Assembly (NCBI GenBank): GCA_016196755.1
Contig: JACPXC010000025.1
Span: 1 to 64,000 of the forward strand
Length of the DNA stretch: 64,000 bases
From: Elusimicrobiota bacterium
GTDB taxonomy: Bacteria; Elusimicrobiota; Elusimicrobia; UBA1565
Direction: 5' to 3'
Shown piece after piece: positions 10,179 to 58,268 of the stretch. A program made the translations under genes and the position numbers. The notes under the pieces were generated by a model, which was not told the origin of the DNA, did not search any database, and was given only the letters and a program-made list of their open reading frames with translations. Each line of letters opens with the position of its first letter. Positions within the stretch are counted from its first letter, which is position 1.

Positions 10179-10265
10179 TGGTGGTTGGGGAAGGATTCGA
10201 ACCTTCGTAGGGCGTAGCCCGCTGGTTTTACAGACCAGTCCATTTGACCGCTCTGGTACCCAACC
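10179..10265 (-). tRNA. tRNA-Tyr (anticodon GTA)
   Basis: Class II tRNA on the minus strand, 87 nt including an encoded CCA. Acceptor arms GGTTGGG and CCCAACC pair perfectly, the discriminator is A, the anticodon loop is CTGTAAA, and a long variable arm (GCGGGCTACGCCC region) precedes the T arm GGTTCGAATCC. A long variable arm with GTA is diagnostic of bacterial tRNA-Tyr. It lies immediately upstream of the carrier gene. Confidence 0.97.
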
Positions 10266-43666: not shown

Positions 43667-43822
43667 ATGGCCCTATTACCCCTCCTCCGCTCCGAAATCC
43701 TCCGCCTCCGCGACCCCAAAAAAGCCGCCGGCATGGCCGCCTACATGAAGTCCAGCCTCAGCCTCTTGACCGAAAAATTACTACATGTTATACTTTCACC
43801 ATCCAGTGAAAATAGATACTAA
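43667..43822 (+). pseudogene. Truncated AlkD-like DNA alkylation repair gene
   Basis: A short frame of 51 codons whose first 28 residues include RDPKKAAGMAAYMKS, the characteristic N-terminal helix of AlkD-type DNA glycosylases. After about 43757 the likeness stops and the sequence becomes AT-rich promoter DNA of the AbiE-like pair. The rest of alkD is not found in the window. Marks the left edge of the inserted island. Confidence 0.55.
43766..43794 (+). promoter_or_regulatory. Promoter TTGACC-17-TATACT of the AbiE-like operon
   Basis: -35 TTGACC at 43766-43771 and -10 TATACT at 43789-43794, spacer 17. It lies across an in-frame ATG at 43785, which therefore cannot be the start; GTG 43806 is the first usable one. 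Confidence 0.75.
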
Positions 43823-43829
43823 AGTGAAA
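43794..43829 (+). promoter_or_regulatory. Probable autoregulatory operator (TTTCAC-N6-GTGAAA plus extra half-site)
   Basis: Inverted repeat TTTCAC (43794-43799) and GTGAAA (43806-43811), with another GTGAAA at 43824-43829. It covers the end of the -10 and the transcript start. AbiEi antitoxins are known to repress their own promoters through inverted repeats, so this is the likely site. Confidence 0.55.
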
Positions 43830-44909
43830 TTTGCTACGGGCAGAAAAAAACCCCTTATCGAACGGGCGAATTCGCAGCTCCAGACTCTATTCCAGTCATT
43901 GGGGCTCTCAGCGGTTCAAATGCCCAGGCGCATTTCGAAAAAGTATTTCTGGGATCGTGCTTATTACAGCAGCTTAAAGGGCCTGTCATTCGAGTTGGGA
44001 CTCTGCGCTAGGCCGACGTCGGAGCCTCGCCGCATCTACGAATTGATGGGGCAGCTTCAACTTCTCGCAGATGAGGAGGAGAAGAGAGCCCACCCGCTTT
44101 TTTTCGCCCCTTATATCGGAGAGCGCTCGGCGCAGCTCTGCCGCCAGGCCGGGATAGGTTATTTCGATGAGATGGGAAACTGTTGGATCAGCTATAAGAC
44201 CATTCTGATTTCTAGATCCGTCGATGTGAAGCCGACCGCTCCGCGTCGACAGAGCCGGCAGTTGTTCGCGCCCAAGTCCACGAGAGTCGTCCGCGCCCTG
44301 TTATCCGACCCAGCCAAGGGATGGCATCAAAGCGAACTCGCCAAAGAGGTGGGAATCAGTCTGGGTTTGGTCAATCGGGTCGTGCAGCGCCTCTTGGGGG
44401 AGGCGTATATCAAGATGGCGGAGAACCGCATCCATCTGAAAGACCCGAAAGCCCTCCTCAATGAGTGGGTGAAAGCCGTCGCCTTGCAGGATACTCCCGC
44501 CACCGAGTATTATTCGCCCGAGCCGCTTCAACAGCTCGAGCAGCGCATGGATGAGCTCAGCAAGAAAGAGGGATTCCAATATGCCTTGACGCTGTTCGCG
44601 GGAGCCCGTTACCGGGCACCATTCGTTCGGATCAATAGGCTCCATGCCTATGTCCAGGGGGACGTCGAATCCATCACCCGAGAACTGGGACTGAAGCCGG
44701 TTTCCTCGGGCGGGAACGTCTTGCTTATCCCGACTCCCGATGAGGGCGTTTTCTTCAAGATGTCGCGCGTCCAGGACCGGAACATCGTTTCCGATGTGCA
44801 GTTGTATGTGGATTTGAAGAACGCGCACGGCCGAGGCGAAGAGCAGGCCGAAGCCGTCGCGCAGCGCTGCCTGCGGCCGATCATGGGTGACGGAGCCGCC
44901 GCGCAGTGA
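43806..44909 (+). CDS. AbiEi-like antitoxin / winged-helix transcriptional regulator
   Basis: About 367 residues. The middle contains a winged helix (TRVVRALLSDPAKGWHQSELAKEVGISLGLVNRVVQRLLGEAYI), as in AbiEi-family antitoxins of type IV systems; the C-terminal half resembles the AbiEi C-terminal domain in length. The partner gene overlaps it by GTGA and encodes a nucleotidyltransferase, the usual AbiEii arrangement. The start is moved to GTG 43806 because an upstream ATG (43785) lies within the promoter. GC content is visibly lower than in the neighbours, suggesting horizontal origin. Confidence 0.75.
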   Translation: MKIDTKVKFATGRKKPLIERANSQLQTLFQSLGLSAVQMPRRISKKYFWDRAYYSSLKGLSFELGLCARPTSEPRRIYELMGQLQLLADEEEKRAHPLFFAPYIGERSAQLCRQAGIGYFDEMGNCWISYKTILISRSVDVKPTAPRRQSRQLFAPKSTRVVRALLSDPAKGWHQSELAKEVGISLGLVNRVVQRLLGEAYIKMAENRIHLKDPKALLNEWVKAVALQDTPATEYYSPEPLQQLEQRMDELSKKEGFQYALTLFAGARYRAPFVRINRLHAYVQGDVESITRELGLKPVSSGGNVLLIPTPDEGVFFKMSRVQDRNIVSDVQLYVDLKNAHGRGEEQAEAVAQRCLRPIMGDGAAAQ

Positions 44910-45748
44910 ACAGAAACGAGTACCCCGCGGACGAGACTCAAGCCGCCATCATGGTCCTGGCCGAGCTGTTGACCTATCTTGGTCCCTATCGCAACGACAT
45001 CGTCGTCATCGGCGGCTGGGTCCCATTTTTTCTGACCCAGAACGTAGTGGTTGATGAGCCGCATGTCGGCTCGTTAGACGTGGATCTCGCCTTGAATATC
45101 GCCAGGATCGCGGATGCCGCCTACGCCCGCATCGAAGAGATACTTGACGAACGCGGCTTCAAGCATCGTCTGGACGCCAAGGGCAGCGTCATCCCGCACA
45201 GCTACGTCCGGCAGGTCAAAAATGCCGCCGGCCAGGAGTTCGACGTTCAGGTCGATTTTCTCGCGCCTGAATACGGCGGGACCGCGAGATCCAAGCGACA
45301 TCAACGGGTTCAGGGCCTTCTCGCGCATAAGGCGCGCGGCAGCGACCTGGTCTTCGAGAATTTTGAGGAGAGGGATATCGAGGCGGTGCTTCCCAATGGA
45401 GCCAAGCGCCTGGTCAAGGCCAAGATCGCCGACCCTCTATCCTGCGTGGTGATGAAGGCGATCGCCTTTCGAGAGAGGGCGCATGAGAAGGACGCCTACG
45501 ATCTATACATCGTCTGCAAATACTGCCCCGACGGCAAGGAGCGGATCGCGGAGGGGATGAGGCAGAACAAGGACAGCAAGCTCGTCCAAGAGGCGCTTGT
45601 GGTCTTGCGCAAGGAGTTTGCCGCCATGGACTCCTTGGGACCTGTTTCGGCGGCTGATTTCATGCAGGAAACCGACGCGACGGCCCGGGCCGTTCGTTGC
45701 AGAGATGTGCTCGAAACCATTCAGGCAGTCTTGGCTCTTGTTGAGTGA
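44906..45748 (+). CDS. AbiEii-like nucleotidyltransferase toxin
   Basis: 280 residues with a nucleotidyltransferase (MNT/DNA-pol-beta) fold: IVVIGGWVPFF followed by SLDVDLALN carrying the metal-binding D-x-D, then a third Asp in FDVQVDFLAPEY. KDAYDLYIVCKY near residue 190 is the K-x-x-D-x-x-D motif typical of AbiEii/MenT-type toxins. Type IV toxins of this class block growth by NMP-adding to tRNA or similar targets, with phage defence in some. GTGA overlap with the antitoxin gene. The assignment as a toxin depends on pairing as well as motif. Confidence 0.75.
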   Translation: MNRNEYPADETQAAIMVLAELLTYLGPYRNDIVVIGGWVPFFLTQNVVVDEPHVGSLDVDLALNIARIADAAYARIEEILDERGFKHRLDAKGSVIPHSYVRQVKNAAGQEFDVQVDFLAPEYGGTARSKRHQRVQGLLAHKARGSDLVFENFEERDIEAVLPNGAKRLVKAKIADPLSCVVMKAIAFRERAHEKDAYDLYIVCKYCPDGKERIAEGMRQNKDSKLVQEALVVLRKEFAAMDSLGPVSAADFMQETDATARAVRCRDVLETIQAVLALVE

Positions 45749-45769: not shown

Positions 45770-46987
45770 CTACAGCTTCGGGAAGGAGGAGGCGATCTCG
45801 CGCATCCCGGCCGCCGAGACGCCGGCCTCGCGGGCGAACTCCTCCCAGCGGCCGACGGCGGCCCGGACTTCGTCGATGACGGTCGCGGTCCGGGGCCGTG
45901 CCACCCCCACAGTCTCGGCCAGGCGGAGGATGTGGGCCCGCCCGGGGTTCTTACCCTCGCCGGCGAGGGTCATCGTGTGCTCCGCGCCGGGGCCGGCGGC
46001 GTAGACGAGGTCATAGGCGGGGGACAGGTTCCATTCGCTGCGGGCATCGTCAAAGACGAAGGCGAAGTTCTTCACATGGTCGTCGCGGTTGTGCGCGAGG
46101 ACGTTGAACGTCATCCGGCGCAGGACCCGGATGACATCCCGGTGGTCACGCGTCAGCGCCGACGCGGCCTTGAAGAGGTCGGCGTAGTCGGCGGAGGGAA
46201 TCCGGAAATTCGACTGAATGAGGTTCCCGAAGGTGTGGACGTGGAAGCGCCTGTTCCCGTCCCGGTCGAAGCGCTTGACGCCGAAAAATCGGCCCGCGGC
46301 GGTCTCGAAGAGGCGGGTCGGCGGCATGTCGATGCCGGCCGCGGCGGCCATGAGGGCGTAGGCGTACTCGACGGGCCCGGCGTCGGCCAGGTCCGCCCTG
46401 GCGGGGAACTTGACCAGCCAGGCCTCAAAGCCCTCGGGCAGGTCGTCGACCCCCGAGAGGATGCGCTCACCCTGGACGCCGACCAGGACCTTGGGGCGCG
46501 CCCCTCCGGGGGAGCCGCCCGCCCGCAATAGCTGCGGCAGGACCTCGCCGGCGTCTCCGGCCAAGAGCTGCTGCGACCGGCGGGCGAGCTCCGCCAGGTC
46601 GAGGGCGGCCGCGTCCCCCGCGCCGCTTTCGGCCGGCGGGTGGTAGGTCAGGGCCCCCATCGTTCGCGTGCCCAGCCAGGCGAGGCGCTCGAGGGGACCG
46701 ATCTCGGCGGGTCTCTTTCCGAGTGAACGGAAATGCCGGTCCATCAGCAAGAGGCCCCAGCCGTCGGGGAGCGAGTCGTCGAAGAGGCCCGGCAGCGGAC
46801 CGAACTCGAGGTCCCGGTGCTCGAAGAGCGCCTCTTCGAATGGGAGGCGCCGGGGAGAGAGGTTCCAGCCGGAGGCAAGGAACCCCCGGTCGTACTCAAA
46901 GTAGACGCGCCCGCGCTCCGAAGCCAGGGTCCCGACGGCGAGCGACTCGGCGGGGGTGCGAGTGAAGCGGACGGAGAGTTTCCTCAA
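45770..46987 (-). CDS. hipA: HipA-family serine/threonine kinase toxin
   Basis: 405 residues. N-terminal HipA_N-type domain (GLFDDSLPDGWGLLLMDRHF), an ATP-binding region with SPGGARPKVLVG and AWLVKFPA (catalytic Lys), FFGVKRFDRDGNRRFHVHTF, the catalytic loop VLAHNRDDHVKNFAF and the metal loop LSPAYDLV. HipA kinases phosphorylate aminoacyl-tRNA synthetases and induce dormancy. Convergent with the AbiE-like pair (21 bases between stops) and overlaps its antitoxin gene by ATGA. All kinase residues look intact, so it is probably active. Confidence 0.9.
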   Translation of the reverse strand: MRKLSVRFTRTPAESLAVGTLASERGRVYFEYDRGFLASGWNLSPRRLPFEEALFEHRDLEFGPLPGLFDDSLPDGWGLLLMDRHFRSLGKRPAEIGPLERLAWLGTRTMGALTYHPPAESGAGDAAALDLAELARRSQQLLAGDAGEVLPQLLRAGGSPGGARPKVLVGVQGERILSGVDDLPEGFEAWLVKFPARADLADAGPVEYAYALMAAAAGIDMPPTRLFETAAGRFFGVKRFDRDGNRRFHVHTFGNLIQSNFRIPSADYADLFKAASALTRDHRDVIRVLRRMTFNVLAHNRDDHVKNFAFVFDDARSEWNLSPAYDLVYAAGPGAEHTMTLAGEGKNPGRAHILRLAETVGVARPRTATVIDEVRAAVGRWEEFAREAGVSAAGMREIASSFPKL

Positions 46988-47301
46988 ACCCGCCCCCGTC
47001 GGCGCGGGGGTTTCGCGGCCCTTTCTTCGAGTTCGGCTAGGCTGCGCGCGGCCGTCGGCTGCAAGAGCCCTTTGAAATCATCGAGGCGGGACAGAGAGTG
47101 GGCGGCCTTGAGGAGCAAATCCAGGGAAGCCTTGCCAGTGTTTTCGAAGCGTTTAAGGGATGCCGGCGAGATGCCGGAGCGCTCCGCCAGCGTGTTGCGC
47201 GTCCACCCCTTCGACAGGCGCAGGGACCGCAAGCGGCTAGCTAAAGCCAATCCAGCCTCTGCGGGATCTTCCGTGTTAATAGTGTTTAATATATTGTCCA
47301 T
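46984..47301 (-). CDS. hipB: HipB-like helix-turn-helix antitoxin
   Basis: 105 residues with an XRE-type HTH (LASRLRSLRLSKGWTRNTLAERSGISPASLKRFENTGKASLDLLLKAAHSL) and a basic, Arg-rich tail. It precedes and overlaps hipA. HipB neutralises HipA and represses the operon. The upstream 47302-47345 DNA is strongly AT-rich in an otherwise GC-rich region and holds the palindrome TAGATATCTA, a likely part of its operator. Confidence 0.85.
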   Translation of the reverse strand: MDNILNTINTEDPAEAGLALASRLRSLRLSKGWTRNTLAERSGISPASLKRFENTGKASLDLLLKAAHSLSRLDDFKGLLQPTAARSLAELEERAAKPPRRRGRV

Positions 47302-47411: not shown

Positions 47412-47504
47412 ATGCAGTTGGGGGGGAACCTCATCCATCTCCTGGTCGTCGTCGCCTTGGTCAGCCTGATATTCAGGATATTCAGCGGCGGTAAGATCCC
47501 TTAG
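47412..47504 (+). pseudogene. DUF5670-like small membrane protein remnant
   Basis: 30 residues from ATG 47412: GGNLIHLLVVVALVSLIFRIF plus a short tail, the second helix and C terminus of DUF5670 (lmo0937-like) stress membrane proteins, which are normally about 48 residues with an extra N-terminal helix. The frame is open upstream to 47331 but has no start codon and no first helix; it runs into the hipBA promoter. Suggests the 5' end was lost at the right edge of the toxin-antitoxin island. It overlaps the stop of the convergent lipoprotein gene by 4 bases. Confidence 0.5.
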
Positions 47505-48538
47505 GGCTTCAGGCGTAGGCGCAGCTCCGCCACGGCCTTGGCGTCCACCGAGCCCACTCGGATGGCGTCCAAGGCCGCTTTGGCTCCCGCCATGTCGCCG
47601 GCTTTGATGAGCGCCCTGGCGAGCTCCATAGCCGCCGCCCCCGCGTCCTCCTCGATGCCGTTGGTCTTGTCGCCGTTGGCCGCGACTTCTTCGATAGCCT
47701 GCTCATGGAACGCCAGGACCCCTTTCCAGACCTCGGCGGCCTTGCCGGGCTGTTTCGAGTGTTCCAAAGCCCTGGCCAGTCCCTTCTGAGTCTCCAAAGA
47801 AGCGTCCGGGAGAGCCGCCGCTCTCTGATAGGCCGCTAGACTCTCCGTCGGCTTGCCCAGCTCTCTCAAGAGCTCGCCCTGGGCCATCACCAGATCCTCG
47901 CCCTCGGGAAGCTTGGCCAACTCCGCCAATGCCTCCTCCCTTCGTCCCGCCTTGCGATAGGTGTCGACCACCTCGGACACCAGGTGTCCGTGATGAGGAT
48001 CGAGCGTCAAAGCCTTGTTGAGGTACTTGAGCGACTCGCTCAAGTCCTTGTCGAAGGATTTGTGGAGGAAGGCCAGCTCTCTCCACGCCTCGCGGTCGGT
48101 GGGGTCGATGCTCACCCGCTGTTCGAGCTTCGCCGAGGCTTCCGCGACCTTGCCCTTGCCCAGCAGCTTGTGGATGCTCTGGAAGTCCGGCAGGGCTTTT
48201 CTTTTGGCGGTGGCCTGGTCGATGCTCTTGGAGAGCTTGTGGGCCCCGTCCAAGGCTGACTTGGCCGCCTTCAAGGCCGCGTCGAAGTCCTTCTCGGTGT
48301 GGGGGCCCTTCCCGGCCGCACCGATCCTCAGACCCAGCGAAGGGACCGTCGTCGATAAGGCCGGCGCGGCCACGGCGGGAGGTCTCGCGGGCCTGAGCGA
48401 CATGATGGGCGCCGTCGAAACGGGTTGGTCTTCCGTCAACGCCGCCGAGAGCGGAGGAAGCGTCGTCTCTTCCATCGGAGGGGGTTCTTTCTTGGAACAG
48501 GCGGTGAGGAGGAGAAGGAGGGGGAGTACTTTCCTCAT
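47501..48538 (-). CDS. TPR lipoprotein of the carbamoyltransferase/GT2-GH2 operon
   Basis: 345 residues. Lipoprotein signal MRKVLPLLLLLTAC with Cys14 in the lipobox LTAC, then a Pro/Thr-rich linker and a TPR array from about residue 120 (REAWRELAFLHKSFDKDLSESLKYLNKAL; KAGRREEALAELAKLPEG; KPTESLAAYQRAAAL). An earlier in-frame start exists, but only ATG 48538 gives the lipobox and an ATGA overlap with the SGNH gene. In polysaccharide export systems (AlgK, PelB, BcsC) TPR proteins of this kind scaffold the periplasmic machinery; it is the only such component in this operon. Confidence 0.8.
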   Translation of the reverse strand: MRKVLPLLLLLTACSKKEPPPMEETTLPPLSAALTEDQPVSTAPIMSLRPARPPAVAAPALSTTVPSLGLRIGAAGKGPHTEKDFDAALKAAKSALDGAHKLSKSIDQATAKRKALPDFQSIHKLLGKGKVAEASAKLEQRVSIDPTDREAWRELAFLHKSFDKDLSESLKYLNKALTLDPHHGHLVSEVVDTYRKAGRREEALAELAKLPEGEDLVMAQGELLRELGKPTESLAAYQRAAALPDASLETQKGLARALEHSKQPGKAAEVWKGVLAFHEQAIEEVAANGDKTNGIEEDAGAAAMELARALIKAGDMAGAKAALDAIRVGSVDAKAVAELRLRLKP

Positions 48539-49596
48539 AGCTTGTCCTTGAGCAACCCGTAGAGCGCCTCGCCGGCCACGCGATGGCCTTTCTCGGTCCA
48601 ATGCCCGTCCACCGGGTAGATGTAGTGGCCGGTCAGCTCGAACTTGGGACGGATGTCGAGGAAGCGCACCCCCGACTTCTTGGCCGTTTCCCAGGAGTAG
48701 TCATAACCCCCGCGGTTGGGGCCGCCGTTCTCGGTGAAGGATGTCGCATAGAGGTTCGGGGCTTCTTTCTTCATCTCGGCCAGGAGGTAGGGGAACAATC
48801 TCTCCGCATAGGCGTTGTCGACCTTCTGCTCGAAGGAGGCCGTCGGGCTGAGCTTCACGTAGTAGAAGTCCTCGAAGTACTTGTAGAAGAACGAGTGCTT
48901 TCTCATCCACGCGAACGCCCCGCCGGCCTTGGCCTGCCCGGAGACCGTTCTACACCCGCCCTCGCAGTCGATGTACTCGAAGTACTCCAGGTCGAACTTG
49001 CCGGCCGGGATGTTGGTCGGTCTGAGCTTCCCGTCTTCGAGGAAGAACGCCGGCTTGCTGTAGAGGCGATGGCGGTTCTTGACCGTCACCACGTCCGGGA
49101 AGTCGTTGTCCGAGAACATGTAGAGGACGAGATCGGGTTTGAGTCTGGGGACCAGTCTCTTTACGAGGAGATACACCTGGTCCGCCCCGTAGCCCCTCAC
49201 CCCGGCGTTGTAGACCTTTACCGGCTTGCCGGCTTCAGCGAAGGAGCGCTCAAGGACCGCCGGGTAGGTCTCGTTGTCGTCGACCTCCTGGCCTACCGTC
49301 GTCGAGTCGCCCACGATGAGGATCTTCTTGGCGTTAGCGGGGGGCTGTCCACCCGTGCTCCTAAAGCCCTGCTCGTCGAAGGAGACCTCGCCCTTGTAGC
49401 CGTGCTGGCGGCTGTGGAAGGTGCCCTTGGAGCCCGGCACGTGGAACCAGCCGAGCTCCGCGTCGTAGGTCCAGAACTTGCTCTCCGCGCTCTCGGCGTC
49501 CTGGGCCGGGAACATCTTGATGGTGGCCTCGGCCAATGCCAAGGGTAGGATGATCGTTAAGAGACCACGGAGGAACCGTCCTACCAGCTGTGCCAT
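48535..49596 (-). CDS. SGNH/GDSL-family hydrolase or acyltransferase, membrane anchored
   Basis: 353 residues. An N-terminal hydrophobic helix (LLTIILPLALAEATI) anchors the protein outside the cytoplasm. SGNH blocks: nucleophile Ser in IVGDSTTVG, Gly in YNAGVRGYGADQ, Asn in MFSDNDFPD, and Asp-x-x-His as PVDGHWTEKGH. Proteins of this form next to carbamoyltransferase and DUF5989 genes are common in other genomes and are thought to act on surface glycans or lipids; whether as esterase or acetyltransferase cannot be told. It overlaps both neighbours. Confidence 0.85.
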   Translation of the reverse strand: MAQLVGRFLRGLLTIILPLALAEATIKMFPAQDAESAESKFWTYDAELGWFHVPGSKGTFHSRQHGYKGEVSFDEQGFRSTGGQPPANAKKILIVGDSTTVGQEVDDNETYPAVLERSFAEAGKPVKVYNAGVRGYGADQVYLLVKRLVPRLKPDLVLYMFSDNDFPDVVTVKNRHRLYSKPAFFLEDGKLRPTNIPAGKFDLEYFEYIDCEGGCRTVSGQAKAGGAFAWMRKHSFFYKYFEDFYYVKLSPTASFEQKVDNAYAERLFPYLLAEMKKEAPNLYATSFTENGGPNRGGYDYSWETAKKSGVRFLDIRPKFELTGHYIYPVDGHWTEKGHRVAGEALYGLLKDKL

Positions 49597-50012
49597 TCTT
49601 CCTCTTCTTGGACGGCGGATGTTTTGGGAGGGGGACCGCCTTTTCTATAGAACTGCGCTATGACGATGCCCGTCACCGCTCCCGTGGCCACCGCGTTGAC
49701 CGCGGCCAGGATGAAGGGGAAGTCCAGCGGCACCCACCAGACCGCGCGGATGGAGAGCCCGATAGGCACGAACTTCATGAGCCCCATCAGCGCCCCGAAG
49801 CGCGCTCCTTCCACCACCCAATGACGCCCCTTGTAGCCCATCGGGAAGATGATGGCCATCAGCCCCCCGTAGATCAGGTGATGGAGGAAGATCAGCTCCT
49901 TGATCGGCTCGGGCCGGGCGAAATCCACCACGTGCATCTGCCAGGTCAGGGAGTAGAAGGCCGTGTCCAAGAAGAACGAGACGGCCGCGGCGGCTAAAGC
50001 GGCGGATATCAT
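49581..50012 (-). CDS. Small polytopic membrane protein
   Basis: 143 residues with four predicted helices (SAALAAAAVSFFLDTAFYSL; ELIFLHHLIYGGLMAIIFPM; GALMGLMKFVPIGLSI; FPFILAAVNAVATGAVTGIVIAQF) and an acidic tail EEEEWHSW. Two His in helix 2 (LHHLIYGG) and a Trp-rich loop are notable. No family recognised. Tied into the operon by ATGA overlap with the GT2-GH2 gene and a 16-base overlap with the SGNH gene, so it should work with them. Confidence 0.7.
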   Translation of the reverse strand: MISAALAAAAVSFFLDTAFYSLTWQMHVVDFARPEPIKELIFLHHLIYGGLMAIIFPMGYKGRHWVVEGARFGALMGLMKFVPIGLSIRAVWWVPLDFPFILAAVNAVATGAVTGIVIAQFYRKGGPPPKTSAVQEEEEWHSW

Positions 50013-53000
50013 GAGCGGGGCGCCACGATCACGGGTTCCTCCAGCGCGATGTCCTTGTCGAAGATGGAGCGGCGCAGGTCGCGCCTAAAGGTAAGGATGT
50101 ACGGCCCCGGGGCCAGGTCCTTGAGCGGCAGGAGCTGTTCCTGGTACGGCAGGTCCTCGGGGATGTCCAAGGTCCGCACCGTGCTTCCGGTGGGCGCGTG
50201 GGAGAGCTCCACGCGCCGCGAGCGCAGGCCGGCGAGGATGAGGAGCGCCTCCGGGTTTATCTCGGTCAGCATGAAGCGCAATCTTACCTCGCCGTCGGCA
50301 AGCGCCGCCGGTGCGAAGGGTCCCCAGTCCGAGCCGGCTACCGAAGCCTGGAGGCCGGTCAGCGAATAATTCTTGGAGATCGGGGGGGCGGCGAATCTCG
50401 CCCACGAAACGGCGGCCAGGCCGCGGTGGGTCGTGTAGTCGAGGCGGATGAGGGCTTCTTTCGGCAGGCCTTTGAGCGTCTTCTTGCCATGGGGGGCGAG
50501 GTCGCCCAAGTCGGTCGGCGCCGAGCCCCAGCCCGTCATGGTGACCGCGCGCAGCCAATAGGGCCGGCGGTTCGTGAAGGTGGTGCTCCCGTCCTTCCGG
50601 GTCAGCTCCACGTCCGAATAGATGTCCCTCAAGCGCTCGGCTTCCAGCCCGGCCTCGCCGTATCTATCCCACACCCCGCGCTTGTCGTCCGGGGTGTCGG
50701 CCGAGAACGGGTCGGTGACGCGCTTGAACTGCGGCTGGGCCCAGTTGTCGTGCGACTCGAAGAACACCCCGCCCACCGCCCCGCCGGCCAAGAGCATCCG
50801 CCACTGGTCGACGAAGCGCGCCGTCCGGTACCAGGAAGGAACCACCTCGGCCGCGCCCAGGAAGCCCCCGAACTCGCCGGCCAGGAAGGGGACTCGACGA
50901 GAGAGCGCGGTGGGAAGCCCCTTCTCCCAGTAGTGGCGCCCCGTGTCGAGCATGTTCACCGAGCGCACGGCGGTCTGGAAGTCCACGTCCAGGCGGTGCG
51001 AGGCGTAGGAGGCCGGCACCTCGCCGCCGTCGGCGCTTCCCAGGCCTCGGGTCAGCTCCTTGAGCGGCTCCTTCCATTTGGCGTCGGGCAGGGCCAGGTC
51101 CAGCTCGTTGCCCAGGTTGTGGATGAGGGCGTAGGCGAAGCCGTGGTTCTGTTTCTTGAGCTTGTGGAAGCGGCGTCGCAGCCCGTTGCGGTCGCCGCGG
51201 TCGGAGAGGTCCATGTCGTCCCAGGTCGAGGCCTCGGCCTGGTCGATGACCAGCAGTTGGGCCGCGGCGGCTTCTTTGCGCAGGGCGTCGTTGGGGGAGT
51301 GGTAGAGCCTGATGGCGTTGGCGCCCAGGTCTTTGATGAGGCGGTAGCCTTGTCCTAGGTCCACGCCTAGCGTCGGATGCGAGAACGAAGGCACCATCCC
51401 TTTGACGAGGAAGGGTTCGCCATTCACAAGCAGGTTTCTTCCGGAGACTTCTTTGAAGTCGGTGGAGAACTTCTCCACGCTCTCACAGCGGAAGCCCTTC
51501 CCGGTGATGCGCGCCCGCAGTTCCTTGGACTCCCAGCCCAGAGGGAACCGCAGGTGCGTGGAGACGATGCGGTAGTCTTCTAGTAGCGTCGTGGACGACA
51601 CCAGGGCCCCGCCCAGCCAGAACTCCACGGCCAGCTCTCGTTCGGGCTTGGTCTGGATGACCTCGGCCGTCAGGATGACCCGGACGTCGTCTTTGCCCTC
51701 TCGGCGCTTCTCGGTCCAGGTGTAGAACTCGAGAGGCGACGAGCGCAGGTCGAAGAACGGCCGTTCCCTCAGCGGCCCGCCCTTGCCGCAGGTCTGGTAG
51801 TAGGCGTAGTCATGCGCCAACAGCGGCGGCATCATGAGGAGGAGCGCAACCCAGACCACGCTGGCCGGGCGCACCGGGAAGCGCAGGGCCGCCGGTTTTC
51901 CCGTAAACGCCGCCGCGCCCCCGTCCAAAGCCGCCGTCCCCGAGCGCCGCACCGCCTTCCAGAGCTTCATCCCGCTCAGCCAGTCCGAGAGCCCCAAGAG
52001 GCCCCCGTAGATGTCGAGGAACAAGATGACCGGGAAGCTCACCGCCCCGGCCAGGAGGTGCCAGCCGCTCATGACATGCAGGCGCAGGGCCCCGGCCCCC
52101 AGCATGGCCAGCGGCGCCCCGATCCCCGCCGCGCAGAGCGCCGCGAAGGTCTTCTCGTGGGGGAACGGGATCATATAGAGGAAGGCCACGTCCCCCGACC
52201 AGCGCATCGCCAAGGCGGCCGCCAGCGCCGCCACCGGCGCGCTCCAGAGCCAGCCCACTACGAAGTCGAACCCGCGCGCGCTCCAGGGCGCCCCGCTCTG
52301 GCGGGAAGACAGCAGGCCCGAGACCAGGGCCCCGGCCAGGGCGATGGCCAGCTGGCGCGAGGGCGGCATCTGGAGGAAGAAGTACGAACCGAGGAGAAGG
52401 TGCAGGGCCGCTATGGCCAGCGTGGCCAGATAGAACTGCCCGTGGACGATGAACTGGGCCTTCACGCGGCGTCCGGTCTTCTCGGAGGCTAGGATGGGCC
52501 TCAAGTGCGCGAAGAAGGCCCGGGTATGGCCGTGGCTCCAGCGCCGTCGCCTGGCCACGAAGCTGTGCAGGTCCGGCGAGAGGTCCTCGCTCGAGCCGTA
52601 GAACGGGTTGTAGGCCACCTTCTCGCCGTCCTGCAGGAGCCGGTAGAACAGGTCGGTGTCCTCGGTCAGGGTATGGCCGAACGGATAGCGCTCGAGGACC
52701 TCGCGGCGGAACAGCGCCGTCGTGCCGGTGAACTGGGCCGGCACCCCGAGGCGCCGATAGACGAAGTTCAGGACCTGGTTGCCCACATGGTGCTGGAGCG
52801 AGTCCCAGAGCCGGTAGATCCCCGCCGCCGAGAGCGGCCAGCGCCGGGCTTGAACGGCGGCGGCCCCGGTCTCGTTGAGGATCGCCAACGACGAGCGCAG
52901 CCAGCTGTGGTGGGCCAGGTGGTCGGCGTCGAGGAAAGCTACGAAGGCTTCTTTGACGTGGGGCAGTTCGGAGTTGAGCTTGTCGGCCTTCGAGGTCAGG

Positions 53001-53383
53001 CCGGTGAAGACCAGCTCGAGCTTCCGGCCGGAGGCCGAAGAGAGCGTCCGCCGTCCGCCGACTTCCGGGCCGGCGTCCGGGAAGGCGGCCAGCAGGTGGG
53101 GGACCGACGTGTCCTCTCCGTCTTTGATGAGGATGCGCGCCGACACCGGCCCCGTATGGTCCTGGTCGAGCAGGGAGAGCGCGCAGCCGACCAGGCCCGG
53201 GCCCTCGTTGAGCGCCGGCACCAGGGCGGCGACGGGTTCCGCTCCGCCGCCCTCGAAGCGGCGGCGCTCCTTGCCGACCAAGAACAGGAACGCGGTTGCC
53301 GTGGCCGCGTAGACCAAGGCGAAGCCCATGAGGTAGGCGCTGCAGGCGTAGGCCGCGGCGAGGAAGAGGTGGGTCAGCGTCAA
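50009..53383 (-). CDS. GT2 synthase fused to a periplasmic GH2-like glycosidase domain
   Basis: 1124 residues. Part 1 (1-about 350): membrane helix, then a family-2 glycosyltransferase with ALVPALNE, the D-x-D-like FLDADH, acceptor-site TLTEDTD and RRRRW in place of QxxRW, as in cellulose-synthase-like enzymes. Part 2 (about 300-560): several membrane helices ending VVWVALLLMMPPLLA. Part 3 (about 570-1124): a beta-sandwich, then a GH2-type TIM barrel (NGEPFLVKGMVPSF; GANAIRLYHSP) with both expected catalytic acids: Glu760 in HNLGNEL and Glu837 in LAGEFGG. The chain thus joins polymer synthesis to a periplasmic glycosidase or transglycosylase. The frame is continuous with no sign of a missed stop. 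ATGA overlap downstream. Confidence 0.88.
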   Translation of the reverse strand: MTLTHLFLAAAYACSAYLMGFALVYAATATAFLFLVGKERRRFEGGGAEPVAALVPALNEGPGLVGCALSLLDQDHTGPVSARILIKDGEDTSVPHLLAAFPDAGPEVGGRRTLSSASGRKLELVFTGLTSKADKLNSELPHVKEAFVAFLDADHLAHHSWLRSSLAILNETGAAAVQARRWPLSAAGIYRLWDSLQHHVGNQVLNFVYRRLGVPAQFTGTTALFRREVLERYPFGHTLTEDTDLFYRLLQDGEKVAYNPFYGSSEDLSPDLHSFVARRRRWSHGHTRAFFAHLRPILASEKTGRRVKAQFIVHGQFYLATLAIAALHLLLGSYFFLQMPPSRQLAIALAGALVSGLLSSRQSGAPWSARGFDFVVGWLWSAPVAALAAALAMRWSGDVAFLYMIPFPHEKTFAALCAAGIGAPLAMLGAGALRLHVMSGWHLLAGAVSFPVILFLDIYGGLLGLSDWLSGMKLWKAVRRSGTAALDGGAAAFTGKPAALRFPVRPASVVWVALLLMMPPLLAHDYAYYQTCGKGGPLRERPFFDLRSSPLEFYTWTEKRREGKDDVRVILTAEVIQTKPERELAVEFWLGGALVSSTTLLEDYRIVSTHLRFPLGWESKELRARITGKGFRCESVEKFSTDFKEVSGRNLLVNGEPFLVKGMVPSFSHPTLGVDLGQGYRLIKDLGANAIRLYHSPNDALRKEAAAAQLLVIDQAEASTWDDMDLSDRGDRNGLRRRFHKLKKQNHGFAYALIHNLGNELDLALPDAKWKEPLKELTRGLGSADGGEVPASYASHRLDVDFQTAVRSVNMLDTGRHYWEKGLPTALSRRVPFLAGEFGGFLGAAEVVPSWYRTARFVDQWRMLLAGGAVGGVFFESHDNWAQPQFKRVTDPFSADTPDDKRGVWDRYGEAGLEAERLRDIYSDVELTRKDGSTTFTNRRPYWLRAVTMTGWGSAPTDLGDLAPHGKKTLKGLPKEALIRLDYTTHRGLAAVSWARFAAPPISKNYSLTGLQASVAGSDWGPFAPAALADGEVRLRFMLTEINPEALLILAGLRSRRVELSHAPTGSTVRTLDIPEDLPYQEQLLPLKDLAPGPYILTFRRDLRRSIFDKDIALEEPVIVAPRS

Positions 53384-53393
53384 GGCGCCGCGC

Positions 53394-53597
53394 TCAGAAC
53401 AGGGAGTACACGAAGGGCGCCAGCGGCGAGACCAGGTTGATGAAGTAGAGCACGATGCCGGCCATATAGAGGGCGATCATGACCGGGATGAGGCCGCCCA
53501 TGCGCCGCGAGCGCAGGTCCTTGGCCACTCCGAAGGCCGCCCCGCCTACGAGTTGGAAACCGGCGTACCACGGCCTGCCTTTGGCGGAACTGGTCAT
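53394..53597 (-). CDS. DUF5989-like small membrane protein
   Basis: 67 residues: a basic amphipathic front and one membrane helix ending MIALYMAGIVLYFINLVSPLAPFVYSLF. The closing SPLAPFVYSLF is the hallmark of DUF5989, a family that accompanies carbamoyltransferase and SGNH genes in many genomes. ATGA overlap with the carbamoyltransferase gene and 10 bases before the GT2-GH2 gene. Role unknown; likely a small subunit or anchor of a membrane complex. Confidence 0.78.
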   Translation of the reverse strand: MTSSAKGRPWYAGFQLVGGAAFGVAKDLRSRRMGGLIPVMIALYMAGIVLYFINLVSPLAPFVYSLF

Positions 53598-55417
53598 GTC
53601 TTCCTCACCACGAGCCCGTTGTAGACCAGCAGGTCCATGGCCGTGCGGGCGTACATGGCCAGGGCCTCGAGCGGCGTGCCCACGATGGGGTAGCCGCTCT
53701 CGTTAAAAGAGGTGTTGAGGACGGCGGAGAGGCCGGTGCGGCGCCCCACGGCCTTGAGCAACGAGTGGTAGCGCTCGTTGTCCTCGCGCGAGCAGACCTG
53801 GGGGCGCGTCGTGCCGTCGACGTGCATGGCGGCGCGGACCGAGGCCTGCGCTTCGGGGCGCACCGGGGCGCTTAGCTGCATCCAGCGATGGGGGGTCTGG
53901 ACGGCTTTGGTGAGGGAGAGGACCTTGCCCGCCTCCTCCTCGGCGATGGAGAGCGCGTAGGGGCGGTAGGGTTCGCGCAGTTTGACCTGGGTGCTGAGGC
54001 GGCGGGCCGTCTCGAGCCGGTCAGGACGGATGAGGATCGAACGGTTGCCCAGCGCGCGCGGGCCGCTCTCGGCCGCGCCCTGGCACCAGCCCACGATCTT
54101 GCCGTCGGCGATGGCCGCGGCGGCCTCCTCGATGACGGCCCCGAAGTCGGCCGGGCGCTCCGAGGTCCAGGTCTCGCCGGGGCGGGGCTGCCAGCCGCGG
54201 ACGGCGAAGCGCCGGTAGCGGCCGGGCTTGGCATGGGGCAGGAGGGCCGCGTCGCGGGTCTCGTCGAAGGCCGCGCCCGTGTAGGGGCCGTAGCCGACCT
54301 TGCCCGGGGTCCGCCCGCCCTGCAGGGCGTCGCCGTAGAGCGCCGCGCCCACCGAGGCCCCGCCGTCGCCGGGGTCGGGGGGGACGTAGAGGCGCTCGAT
54401 CCAAGGCTGTTTGAGCAGGCTGGCGTTAGCCACGCAGTTGAGCGCCCCGCCGCCGGCCAGGCAGAGATTGGCAGAGCCGGCCGACTCATGCGCGCGCTTG
54501 GCCAGGCCCACCATCAGCTCCTCGAAGACCAGCTGGATGCTGGCCGCCACGTCGGCGTAGAAATTCATGTCGGCCGGGGCCTCCGAAGGACCATCTGCCA
54601 GGCAGTCGAAGGGCAGGCGGTCCTTGAAGCTCCGGGGTTTGCCGCCGAGCGCGGCCAGGAAGCGCGGCGTGAAGGGGTCGGCGTAGAAGTTGCGGAAGTT
54701 GAAGTAGTCCTGGTCGACGCGGATGAGGCCTTCCGGGTCGAGCCGGACCATCTTGCGGACCTCGTCGGCGAAGACCGGCCGGCCGAAGGCGGCCAGCGCC
54801 ATCGTGCTGCACTCGCCGTCCATCGGAACGAAGCCCAGGAAGGCCGTGAAGGTGGAGTAGACCAAGCCCAAGGAGTCCGGGAACTCGGCCCGGGCCAGGG
54901 GCTTGAGCGCCGGCCGGCCGCCCTCGTAGGTGGCATGGGTGATGGCGGCCGTCTCCCACTCGCCCACCGAGTCGACGCTGAGCACCGCCGCCTCGGAGAA
55001 AGGCGAGCCCAAAAAAGCCTGGGCGGCATGGGTCTGGTGGTGGCGCAGGGTCCGCACCAGGTCGGGGTGGACGTCGAGGCGCTTGGAGATATCGTTGCGC
55101 ACCCAGAGCTTCTTGCCCAGCCAGACCTTGAGGCCGGCCACGAACTCGCGGCGCGTGTCCGGAAAGCCGGCCAGGCTCGAGGCCAGGACGCGCGTGAACG
55201 TGGCGGCGGGGTCCTCGTGGTAGACGATAGCGTCGAGCTCGGAGGCCGCCACGCCGGCCTTCTCCAGGCACCAGCGCACCGAGAGCGCGGGGAAGTTCGG
55301 GTCGTGCTTCTGGCGCGAGAAGCGCTCCTCGGCCGCCGCGGCCACCAGGACACCGTCGACGACCAACGCCGCCGAGGCGTCGTGGAAGCCGTAGGAGAGG
55401 CCGAGGGTCCGCCTCAC
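53594..55417 (-). CDS. Carbamoyltransferase (NodU/HypF-type)
   Basis: 607 residues. Transfers a carbamoyl group from carbamoyl phosphate via carbamoyl-adenylate to a hydroxyl of a sugar or other metabolite. The N-terminal Kae1-like domain has LGLSYGFHDASAALV, RHHQTHAAQAF (metal-binding His pair), SVDSVGEW and LCLAGGGALNCVAN. The C-terminal YrdC-like catalytic part has CQGAAESGPRALGNRSIL, REPYRPYALSI and NTSFNESGYPIVGTP. The start is GTG 55417 (GTGA overlap with the ferritin-like gene). In this operon the acceptor is probably the glycan made by the GT2-GH2 protein or its lipid precursor; this is inference. Confidence 0.92.
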   Translation of the reverse strand: MRRTLGLSYGFHDASAALVVDGVLVAAAAEERFSRQKHDPNFPALSVRWCLEKAGVAASELDAIVYHEDPAATFTRVLASSLAGFPDTRREFVAGLKVWLGKKLWVRNDISKRLDVHPDLVRTLRHHQTHAAQAFLGSPFSEAAVLSVDSVGEWETAAITHATYEGGRPALKPLARAEFPDSLGLVYSTFTAFLGFVPMDGECSTMALAAFGRPVFADEVRKMVRLDPEGLIRVDQDYFNFRNFYADPFTPRFLAALGGKPRSFKDRLPFDCLADGPSEAPADMNFYADVAASIQLVFEELMVGLAKRAHESAGSANLCLAGGGALNCVANASLLKQPWIERLYVPPDPGDGGASVGAALYGDALQGGRTPGKVGYGPYTGAAFDETRDAALLPHAKPGRYRRFAVRGWQPRPGETWTSERPADFGAVIEEAAAAIADGKIVGWCQGAAESGPRALGNRSILIRPDRLETARRLSTQVKLREPYRPYALSIAEEEAGKVLSLTKAVQTPHRWMQLSAPVRPEAQASVRAAMHVDGTTRPQVCSREDNERYHSLLKAVGRRTGLSAVLNTSFNESGYPIVGTPLEALAMYARTAMDLLVYNGLVVRKT

Positions 55418-56085
55418 GACCACCCCGCGGACGAGGCGGTGCGGCGCCGCCGGGCGATTCCGGCTCCCAGGGGGGCCAGGACCCAGTAGACGGCCGAGAG
55501 GAAGCCGGTCGAGGCCAGGTCGGTGACGTTGCGGCCGGTCCTCAGCCAGGCTTCCCAGCGCCGGCGCCAGCGGATGAGGCCCGACTCCCGCTGGAACTGT
55601 TCCTCGCTGATGCCGAGCTCGTTGATGAACTCCCTGGCGCCGTGCACGTGGCCGACTTCGTCTGCCAGGATACTGTCCAGCGTCTTTATGAGCCGGGGGT
55701 CGGTGGCGGCGTCGCGGATGTGGGTGAAGCGCGTGGCCGCGGCGTCCTCGCCCACGTAGCAGTAGATGAAGAACTTCCACATCTCGGCCTTGTCCCAGTA
55801 GAGCGCCTCGCGCTCGTACTTGGCCGGAACCAGGGGAGAGGCGCTGTCCTCGTTGTAGAGCCCCTTGAACAGCTCGGCGTGATGGGTCTCTTCCAAGACC
55901 TGGCCCAGCAGGTCGGCGCGCTGGGCGGGGTCGTCGACCTTGTCGGCGGCGTAGAGCAGCTGCCAGGCGCTGTCGGCCTCGGTGGCCGAGAACAGGCGCA
56001 GGGAGTCTAGGTAGCGGCTCTTGGAGAGGCCCCAGGCGAGGCGGACGAGGAGCTTGACGCGCAAAGCTTCCAGCCAGGTGGGCAT
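55414..56085 (-). CDS. Ferritin-like diiron-fold protein
   Basis: 223 residues, mainly helical. Two E-x-x-H motifs on separate helices (VLEETHHAELF and ILADEVGHVHGA), with other acidic residues between them (TEADSAWQLLY, EREALYWDKAEMW), fit a ferritin-like four-helix diiron site. The C terminus has a hydrophobic stretch (TGFLSAVYWVLAPLGAGIA) that may bind the membrane. Possible roles are an oxygenase or hydroxylase acting on the glycan or lipid substrate of this operon. First gene of the operon; an extended -10 (TGGTACACT) lies 10 bases upstream of its ATG. Confidence 0.75.
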   Translation of the reverse strand: MPTWLEALRVKLLVRLAWGLSKSRYLDSLRLFSATEADSAWQLLYAADKVDDPAQRADLLGQVLEETHHAELFKGLYNEDSASPLVPAKYEREALYWDKAEMWKFFIYCYVGEDAAATRFTHIRDAATDPRLIKTLDSILADEVGHVHGAREFINELGISEEQFQRESGLIRWRRRWEAWLRTGRNVTDLASTGFLSAVYWVLAPLGAGIARRRRTASSAGWS

Positions 56086-56118
56086 CGGCCTGTAAAGTGT
56101 ACCACGAGCGGACGCCGT

Positions 56119-56451
56119 CTAAAGGCGGCCGAGGTGCGCCAGGATCCTGCCGCTCTCGGTCAGCTTCTTGCGCAGGATCTCCGAGATCGGGCGCAGGACG
56201 TTGAAGATGTCCTTGTCGCGGATGGTATAGAAGACCATGACCTTCTCCTGGCGCGAGCGCAGGATGCCCGACTGCTTCAGGAGGGCGAGATGCTTGGAAA
56301 GCGCCGACTGCTCGATCCCGAGCCTCTTGACCATCTCGCCGACCGAGGACTCCCGGGTCTTGAGGTACTCGATGATCTCCAGCCGCGCCGGGTGGGCGAG
56401 GGATTTGAGGAAGTCGGCCTTGATCTTGAAGACCAGCTTCTCCTGAGCCAC
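56119..56451 (-). CDS. ArsR-type winged-helix regulator
   Basis: 110 residues: KADFLKSLAHPARLEIIEYLKTRESSVGEMVKRLGIEQSALSKHLALLKQSGILRSRQEKVMVFYTI is the ArsR fold with recognition helix at QSALSKHLALL. None of the Cys metal-site residues of ArsR/SmtB is present, so it senses something other than a classical thiol-bound metal. The GTG start shares its G with the pckG stop (TAGTG), so the two are translated together, which suggests that it may regulate this gluconeogenic locus. Confidence 0.85.
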   Translation of the reverse strand: MAQEKLVFKIKADFLKSLAHPARLEIIEYLKTRESSVGEMVKRLGIEQSALSKHLALLKQSGILRSRQEKVMVFYTIRDKDIFNVLRPISEILRKKLTESGRILAHLGRL

Positions 56452-58268
56452 TAAGAGGCCAGGCGCTGGCCGAGCGCGTCCAGCTGGCGCCCCAGCTCCT
56501 TGGGCAGACGGTCTCCGAAGCGGTCGAAGAACTCCCGGACGCCCGGGAGCTCCGCCAGCCACTCGTCCTTCTTGACCTCCAAGAGCTTGTCCATCGCGCC
56601 GGCGGACAGCTCGAGACCGGTCAGGTCGACGGCCCCCTTGGCGGGCACGAAGCCGATGGGCGTCTCCGTCGCCTGCCCTTCTCCGCGGGTCCGCGCGAGG
56701 ATCCACTCCAGCACGCGCAGGTTCTCGCCGTAGCCGGGCCACAGGAACTTGCCGTGCTCGTCCTTGCGGAACCAGTTCACGTGGAAGATCTTGGGCGGCT
56801 TCGGTGTCTTGGCCCCCATCTCCAGCCAGTGCCCGAAATAATCGCCCATGTTGTAGCCGCAGAAGGGCAGCATGGCCATCGGGTCGCGGCGGACCTCGCC
56901 GACCTTGCCCACCGCGGCGGCGGTACGCTCGGAGGCCACGGTGGCCCCGACGTAGACCCCGTGCTCCCAGCCCAACGACTCGAATACCAGCGGCGCCAGG
57001 CGTTCGCGGCGCCCTCCGAAGATGATCGCCGAGATCGGCACGCCGGAGGGGCTGTCCCAGTTCGCCGCGATCGAAGGGCACTGTCCGGCCGGGGCGGTGA
57101 AGCGGCTGTTGGGATGGGCACCTAGCAGCGGCTTGCCGTCCGGGCCCTTGAACTCCGGCTTCCAAGGCTTGCCCTCCCAATTGGTGCCCGAGGCGGGGGG
57201 GGCGCCCTCGCCGTCCTCCCACCAGACGGTGAGGTCGTCGCCGAGCAGGACGTTGGTGAAGATGGTGTCCCTGCTCACGGTGGCGATCGCGTTGGGGTTC
57301 GACTTGGAGTTGGTGCCCGGAGCGACGCCGAAGAAGCCCGCCTCGGGGTTGCAGGCCCAAAGACGGCCGTCGGGGCCGACGCGCAGCCAGGCGATGTCGT
57401 CTCCGAGGGTCCAGATCCGATAGCCCTTGGCCTTGAGGCCTTGCGGCGGTATCAGCATCGCCAGGTTGGTCTTGCCGCAGGCCGAGGGGAACGCGGCGGT
57501 CACGTATTCGACCTTGCCGTCCGGGTGCTCGACGCCGAGGATGAGCATGTGCTCGGCCAGCCAGCCCTCCTTGCGCGCCTGCCAGGACGCGATGCGCAGG
57601 GCCAGGCATTTCTTGCCCAGGAGCGCGTTGCCGCCGTAGGCGGAGCCCACCGACCAGATGGTGTTGTCCTGGGGGAAGTGCAGGATCATGCGCTTGGAGA
57701 CGTCGAGGTCGGCCTTCGAGTGCAGGCACTTCACGAACTCGCCGTCGGCCCCCAGCTGGTCGAGCACCGGCCGGCCGATGCGGGTCATGATGCGCATGTT
57801 GAGGACCACGTAGATGGAGTCGGTCAGCTCGACGCCGATCTTCGAGAACGGGGAGCCCACCGGACCCATCGAGAAGGGCACCACATACAGCGTGTGGCCC
57901 CTCATGGAGCCCTTGAGGACCTCGCGCGCCTTCTTGTAGCCCTCCTCCGGCGCCATCCAGTTGTTGGTCGGGCCGGCGTCCTCCTTCTTCTCGGTGCAGA
58001 TGTAGGTGAGATGCTCGGTCCGGGCCACGTCGTTGGGGTTGGAGCGGCTGTAGAAGCAGCCCGGGAAGCGTTCCGGGTCGAGAGGAATCAGCTGGCCGCG
58101 GGCGACGCCGCGCTTCTCCAGGCGCTTCTTCTCCGCCTCCGAACCGTCAACCCATACCACGGAATCCGGCTTGCAGATCCCGGCGATCTCGTCGACCCAG
58201 GCGGCCAGCCCGGCATGGGCGGGCGCGCCGGACCCGGCGCGGTCTGTTCTCTGCTGTTCGGTGAGCAT
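56451..58268 (-). CDS. pckG: Phosphoenolpyruvate carboxykinase (GTP)
   Basis: Converts oxaloacetate and GTP to PEP, CO2 and GDP: gluconeogenesis or, in reverse, anaplerosis. 605 residues, normal for the GTP type. Signatures are AAFPSACGKTNLAMLIPP (P-loop with the reactive Cys), GDDIAWLR (metal and OAA binding), NPEAGFFGVAPGTN, RFTAPAGQCPSI and the C-terminal FHVNWFRKDEHGKFLWPGYGENLRVLEWI. ATG with GGAG upstream and a leader of about 100 AT-rich bases (58270-58370), unlike most other starts in this window. Confidence 0.96.
   Translation of the reverse strand: MLTEQQRTDRAGSGAPAHAGLAAWVDEIAGICKPDSVVWVDGSEAEKKRLEKRGVARGQLIPLDPERFPGCFYSRSNPNDVARTEHLTYICTEKKEDAGPTNNWMAPEEGYKKAREVLKGSMRGHTLYVVPFSMGPVGSPFSKIGVELTDSIYVVLNMRIMTRIGRPVLDQLGADGEFVKCLHSKADLDVSKRMILHFPQDNTIWSVGSAYGGNALLGKKCLALRIASWQARKEGWLAEHMLILGVEHPDGKVEYVTAAFPSACGKTNLAMLIPPQGLKAKGYRIWTLGDDIAWLRVGPDGRLWACNPEAGFFGVAPGTNSKSNPNAIATVSRDTIFTNVLLGDDLTVWWEDGEGAPPASGTNWEGKPWKPEFKGPDGKPLLGAHPNSRFTAPAGQCPSIAANWDSPSGVPISAIIFGGRRERLAPLVFESLGWEHGVYVGATVASERTAAAVGKVGEVRRDPMAMLPFCGYNMGDYFGHWLEMGAKTPKPPKIFHVNWFRKDEHGKFLWPGYGENLRVLEWILARTRGEGQATETPIGFVPAKGAVDLTGLELSAGAMDKLLEVKKDEWLAELPGVREFFDRFGDRLPKELGRQLDALGQRLAS

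Follow-up and report, generated by a model that had tools for sequence, protein, structure and literature searches.

Whether a set of seven tightly packed genes in a genome of the bacterial phylum Elusimicrobiota forms one system that recurs as a unit is the question raised by this locus. The genes lie at positions 47501-56085 of a 64,000-nucleotide stretch of DNA (GenBank assembly GCA_016196755.1, contig JACPXC010000025.1, positions 1 to 64,000), which is hereafter called the window. An original prediction made from the letters alone described them as a possible undescribed carbamoylated-glycan system. In operon order, the genes encode a ferritin-like diiron protein, an O-carbamoyltransferase, a DUF5989 protein, a GT2-GH2 fusion, a small membrane protein, an SGNH hydrolase and a TPR lipoprotein. 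We found that the operon is real and that it consists of two modules, not one recurring system: module 1 comprises the ferritin-like, carbamoyltransferase and DUF5989 genes, and module 2 comprises the genes for the GT2-GH2 fusion, the membrane protein, the SGNH enzyme and the TPR lipoprotein.

The seven genes, all on the minus strand, fill the interval in the predicted position and order, and the spacings between them are -4, -4, +10, -4, -16 and -4 bases. GC content at the third codon position (GC3) is 0.82-0.94 in all seven genes, as compared with 0.40-0.69 at the first and second positions, and therefore all of them look coding. The coordinates, gene order and tight packing given by the original prediction were thus borne out, as were its domain calls. 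The genes are presumably co-transcribed.

The carbamoyltransferase (607 aa, 53594..55417) is of the NodU/TobZ/GdmN type, and its GTG start overlaps the upstream stop by 4 bases. It has both the N- and C-terminal domains of the family (PF02543, 3.5e-56; PF16861, 2.7e-54) and matches solved carbamoyltransferase structures (best 2.8e-67), whose enzymes act on antibiotics. The family motifs FHDA, HHxxHA and GPRALGNRSI are conserved, in the forms GFHDAS, HHQTHA and ESGPRALGNRSI. As in the known carbamoyltransferase/SxtJ/DUF5989 cassettes, the gene beside it, here with an overlap of 4 bases, encodes a small SxtK-like membrane protein (67 aa, 53394..53597). This protein matches DUF5989 slightly below the gathering score (PF19451, 2.6e-5) and has the same C-terminal motif as the DUF5989 proteins of neighboring genomes. 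Such cassettes occur in at least three bacterial phyla, namely that of the window, Pseudomonadota and Planctomycetota. SxtI, the carbamoyltransferase of the sxtI-J-K-L set, reportedly works in concert with SxtJ and SxtK, and removal of the carbamoyl group has been proposed as the role of the GDSL enzyme SxtL (PMC2679770). We found no papers naming DUF5989 or the "SxtJ family" in the open literature, a search whose scope left out most subscription journals.

The ferritin-like protein (223 aa, 55414..56085) owes its label to six residues, E36, E66, H69, E113, E143 and H146, which are invariant in three homologues and spell an E/ExxH/E/ExxH pattern (E66xxH69 and E143xxH146). The same pattern is distributed over four helices in the diiron families DUF455, COQ7 and AurF; unlike these, the window protein reaches no family threshold (DUF455 scores 0.037 in Pfam) and carries an SxtJ-like membrane tail. 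An AlphaFold model of low confidence (predicted local distance difference test, pLDDT, 54), built from an alignment of two sequences, sets the ligands on four helices in ferritin-like order. The domain is predicted to bind iron and to be oxidase-like.

The tail, which spans residues ~165-223 and was missed by the original prediction, would explain the place of a diiron protein in a carbamoyltransferase cassette. In other genomes of the order, a short protein resembling the C-terminal half of SxtJ adjoins the carbamoyltransferase, usually along with DUF5989. A profile of 12 such C-termini, with no ferritin-like protein included, matched the C-terminus of a ferritin-like protein from a Sphingobium plasmid at 1.6e-10. 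With the same profile, the window protein was the top frame after the SxtJ-like ones among ~3250 (E 0.077, or 0.023 when the profile was enlarged to 22 sequences), and the tail of a homologue from another genome of the phylum (G219) scored more weakly (0.44 with 22 sequences). Each of the three tails outscored all of 1000 shuffles; when profile was compared with profile, the E value was 2.2e-5 for a single comparison (probability 76%). The Pfam SxtJ model covers the same C-terminal half in a short protein of a further genome (G205, locus L063), and none of the seven operon proteins matches PF19588 as a stand-alone SxtJ would. An SxtJ-type tail is therefore firmly assigned by sequence comparison to the Sphingobium protein, and the window protein is probably a diiron domain followed by a divergent SxtJ-type tail, in the SxtJ slot of the cassette. 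More generally, carbamoyltransferases of the order (loci L063-L080) almost always stand beside a short SxtJ-like protein of 80-140 aa, often too divergent for the Pfam SxtJ model. The 143-aa membrane protein of module 2 was considered as a candidate SxtJ and rejected, as direct comparison showed no similarity.

The distribution of the genes separates the two modules. We searched 341 genomes of the phylum (340 besides that of the window) and 72,556 plasmid records. Besides the window genome, the ferritin-like gene was present in the phylum only in G219, which belongs to the same order, and among the plasmids only in that of Sphingobium sp. TomTYG65 (AP027331.1, 11555-15651; locus L110). In both, the ferritin-like/carbamoyltransferase/DUF5989 triad has the order and packing seen in the window. 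The best relatives of the window carbamoyltransferase, G219 in the order (51%) and Sphingobium among the plasmids (41%), are exactly these two locations. In the carbamoyltransferase tree, the window and G219 enzymes are sisters (100/100 support), and a single origin of the three triads is weakly favored (67/88). Upstream of the Sphingobium triad lies a cupredoxin-like gene, and downstream of it a gene for an S-adenosylmethionine-dependent methyltransferase; the triad and flanking genes are all annotated as hypothetical, and one bears the gene name nolO. The G219 contig ends 3 kb beyond the triad on the module-2 side, past genes on the opposite strand.

Searches of up to 340 other genomes of the phylum and of the plasmids did not turn up the full seven-gene set a second time, in keeping with the novelty that the original prediction saw in this union. 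The idea of a single recurring system was not supported, since the triad occurs in G219 and Sphingobium without the other four genes. The scattering of homologues that the original prediction would have counted against itself was seen in part: the triad occurs alone, SGNH relatives are scattered, and for the small membrane protein the relatives are all distant and stand in unrelated contexts. Two scans of the genome-contig collection, one with GT2-GH2 and one with the ferritin-like alignment, which used short peptide patterns and exclude close relatives only, returned no relative.

The GT2-GH2 fusion (1124 aa, 50009..53383) consists of a GT2 half, several transmembrane segments and a GH2-like half. 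The GT2 half matches Pfam at 6.4e-15 and has the motifs KDGE, DAD and TED. The GH2 half (~600 residues) had no Pfam match; its best match among solved structures was the GH2 beta-galacturonidase 6ncw (phmmer, 1.9e-5), and the putative acid/base E760 (LGNE) and nucleophile E837 (AGEF) align with those of most relatives. In a Foldseek search with a model of this half (pLDDT 40), all matches below an E value of 0.001 were GH2-type enzymes (best 5.8e-5), a fold match that is not fully independent because the alignment behind the model contained two GH2-type rows. A search of other genomes of the phylum, 340 of them in the case of the GH part, turned up no relative that spans the full length of the fusion. 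The phylum also has secreted TIM-barrel glycosidase-like proteins (L128-L130) with GNE and EWG/EYG/EFG motifs, which resemble the GH2 half and, by eye, also GH72 glucanosyltransferases.

The small membrane protein (49581..50012) has three to four transmembrane helices. The SGNH/GDSL hydrolase (353 aa, 48535..49596; Pfam, 3.4e-11) has an N-terminal membrane anchor and the motifs GDST at 96, SDND at 162 and DGH at 330. The TPR lipoprotein (345 aa, 47501..48538; TPR, 1.7e-14) has a signal peptide and the lipobox LTAC, with a serine at +2 that is of the outer-membrane type by the E. coli rule.

Each part of the operon is of a known kind. With the cassettes of the sxtI-J-K-L type (also in Aquisphaera, Methylosinus and on an S. 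meliloti plasmid), the window shares the carbamoyltransferase, DUF5989 and, probably, an SxtJ-like membrane segment. The SGNH gene present at several of those loci also has a counterpart, but one that stands behind a glycan synthase, and the SxtJ slot is probably occupied by the diiron-domain fusion. With the synthase-dependent exopolysaccharide systems for alginate, PNAG, Pel and cellulose (PMC9384988), the window shares a GT2 synthase, a polymer-processing hydrolase, an SGNH-type modifying enzyme and a TPR protein, the last being a separate outer-membrane lipoprotein like AlgK.

The best explanation, which we hold tentatively and at somewhat less than even odds, is that the two modules work together and that module 1 decorates the sugar precursor or the lipid on which module 2 draws. 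For this scheme we infer co-transcription, the catalytic activities, the substrate, the sequence of reactions and the connection of the two modules. Module 1 would be a variant of the membrane cassette of carbamoyltransferase, SxtJ and DUF5989, with a diiron ferritin-like domain joined to the SxtJ partner; by analogy with SxtI/J/K, it would act as a membrane-held carbamoyltransferase complex plus an oxidase. The diiron domain would oxidize a membrane-associated substrate, probably a sugar precursor, the carbamoyltransferase would cap a hydroxyl group with the carbamoyl moiety of carbamoyl phosphate, and the small membrane proteins would hold the complex at the inner membrane. In module 2, the GT2 domain would polymerize a glycan and pass it through its own membrane channel, and the fused periplasmic GH2 domain would cleave, trim or transglycosylate it. 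The anchored SGNH enzyme may remove or transfer ester groups and, by analogy with SxtL, may edit the carbamoylated product, while the TPR lipoprotein would scaffold the module 2 enzymes at the outer membrane. That the modules are linked is suggested by their common operon, with the module 1 product as the precursor or lipid partner of the GT2-GH2 glycan. The carbamoylated glycan of the original prediction is plausible as the product, although enzymes of this family could act on several other substrates as well. A fuller version, in which the diiron-SxtJ oxidase and the carbamoyltransferase form a complex whose oxidized, carbamoylated sugar or lipid is built by GT2-GH2 into an envelope polymer, is unlikely. 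We know of no carbamoyl or diiron chemistry in synthase-dependent exopolysaccharide systems.

Several observations weigh against this explanation. A directly extruding synthase leaves no obvious access to the polymer for a cytoplasmic carbamoyltransferase, the GT2 half has RRRRW in place of QxxRW (Q to R), and the seven proteins contain, in contrast to the synthase-dependent systems, neither a beta-barrel porin domain nor a cyclic di-GMP receptor domain (PilZ or GGDEF). A Foldseek search with the model of the ferritin-like protein gave no match below an E value of 0.5 and so did not confirm the fold, and the SxtJ-like tail of the window protein is a weak match (E 0.02-0.08 as long as the profile does not include the Sphingobium tail). 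Next to the triad in G219 and Sphingobium there are no synthase, SGNH or TPR genes, and the modules may be functionally unrelated, given that the triad exists elsewhere without synthase genes.

Carried to its conclusion, this last point describes two independent cassettes that merely share an operon, the triad modifying a lipid or small molecule and the GT2-GH2/SGNH/TPR set making an envelope glycan free of carbamoyl groups. We consider this somewhat doubtful. Neither triad outside the window has a glycosyltransferase, glycosidase, SGNH or TPR neighbor, and the genes that do stand beside them, a fatty-acid-hydroxylase-type gene in G219 and the methyltransferase and cupredoxin genes in Sphingobium, fit such independence; the gap of only 10 bases between the DUF5989 and GT2 genes argues for a closer tie, as do the SGNH genes that accompany carbamoyltransferase cassettes in S. 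meliloti, Methylosinus and Azospirillum. Quite improbable is a carbamoylated, oxidized secondary metabolite of the sxtI-J-K-L kind, from which the SGNH enzyme would remove the carbamoyl group and for which GT2-GH2 would be a non-processive glycosyltransferase with a trimming domain. The set of activities is similar to that of sxtI, J, K and L, the solved carbamoyltransferase relatives act on antibiotics and RRRRW departs from QxxRW, but none of the seven genes builds a scaffold (no polyketide synthase, non-ribosomal peptide synthetase or amidinotransferase), and the TPR lipoprotein better suits the export of an envelope polymer. The least probable of these alternatives makes GT2-GH2 a cyclic-glucan-type synthase, in which the GT2 domain polymerizes and the periplasmic glycosidase cuts and cyclizes, the other genes being accessory decoration. 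It draws on the GT2-GH17 Orphan/NdvB proteins of pseudomonads, cyclic beta-glucan synthases for which a polymerize-then-trim design has been proposed (PMC10237404) and which likewise combine in a single polypeptide a cytoplasmic GT2 domain, membrane helices and a periplasmic TIM-barrel hydrolase; the glutamate pair of the window hydrolase is intact. This hydrolase resembles GH2 instead of GH17 and stands at the C-terminal side, the reverse of the pseudomonad proteins, in which it is N-terminal.

The borders of the operon were also examined. A gene for an ArsR-type helix-turn-helix regulator (56119..56451, minus strand) ends 33 bases upstream and abuts a phosphoenolpyruvate carboxykinase (PEPCK) gene (56451-58268), also on the minus strand; the regulator may control the operon or be a read-through neighbor. 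Neither a minus-strand terminator-like site nor a sigma-70-like site was found from the PEPCK start to the end of the TPR gene, and read-through from PEPCK is therefore possible, so that the array may start further upstream, in the PEPCK/ArsR direction. An extended -10-like sequence, TGGTACACT (56096..56104, minus strand), lies ~11 bases before the first ATG, that of the ferritin-like gene, where no Shine-Dalgarno sequence was found; a promoter, possibly leaderless, directly at the predicted 5' border is therefore plausible.

The carbamoyltransferase had no match at 1e-20 in two genus mates even though its aminotransferase places the contig in that genus, and the operon is therefore probably accessory within the genus. 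Mis-binning of the contig as a cause of this absence was rejected: the aminotransferase, encoded near the operon, shares 82% identity with its counterpart in a genus mate, and only PEPCK pointed elsewhere. PEPCK itself is 86% identical to that of another family of the order, as compared with 78-80% for its own genus, and a second copy (73%) lies on another contig of the genome; transfer of PEPCK within the order is possible. No empty site was found in relatives by synteny, the flanks not being conserved. On the 3' side, 199 bases separate the TPR gene from a HipB/HipA-type pair, HipA with an upstream HipB-like frame (45770-47301, minus strand), which is followed by an AbiEi/AbiEii-like pair (43785-45748, plus strand); these suggest that the region downstream of the operon is variable and accessory. 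A tRNA-Tyr gene (10179-10265, minus strand) lies ~37 kb from the operon.

As far as the searches reach, two features of the operon are new: the probable diiron-SxtJ fusion within a carbamoyltransferase cassette and the GT2-GH2 fusion. If an oxidized and carbamoylated unit does enter an envelope polymer, synthase-dependent glycans would gain a new chemistry. The natural joining of the SxtJ half to a diiron domain would point to SxtJ as a docking subunit through which a second enzyme reaches the carbamoyltransferase, an idea that bears on the whole class of these cassettes, and the GT2-GH2 fusion would add a second hydrolase family to the polymerize-then-trim design proposed for GT2-GH17.

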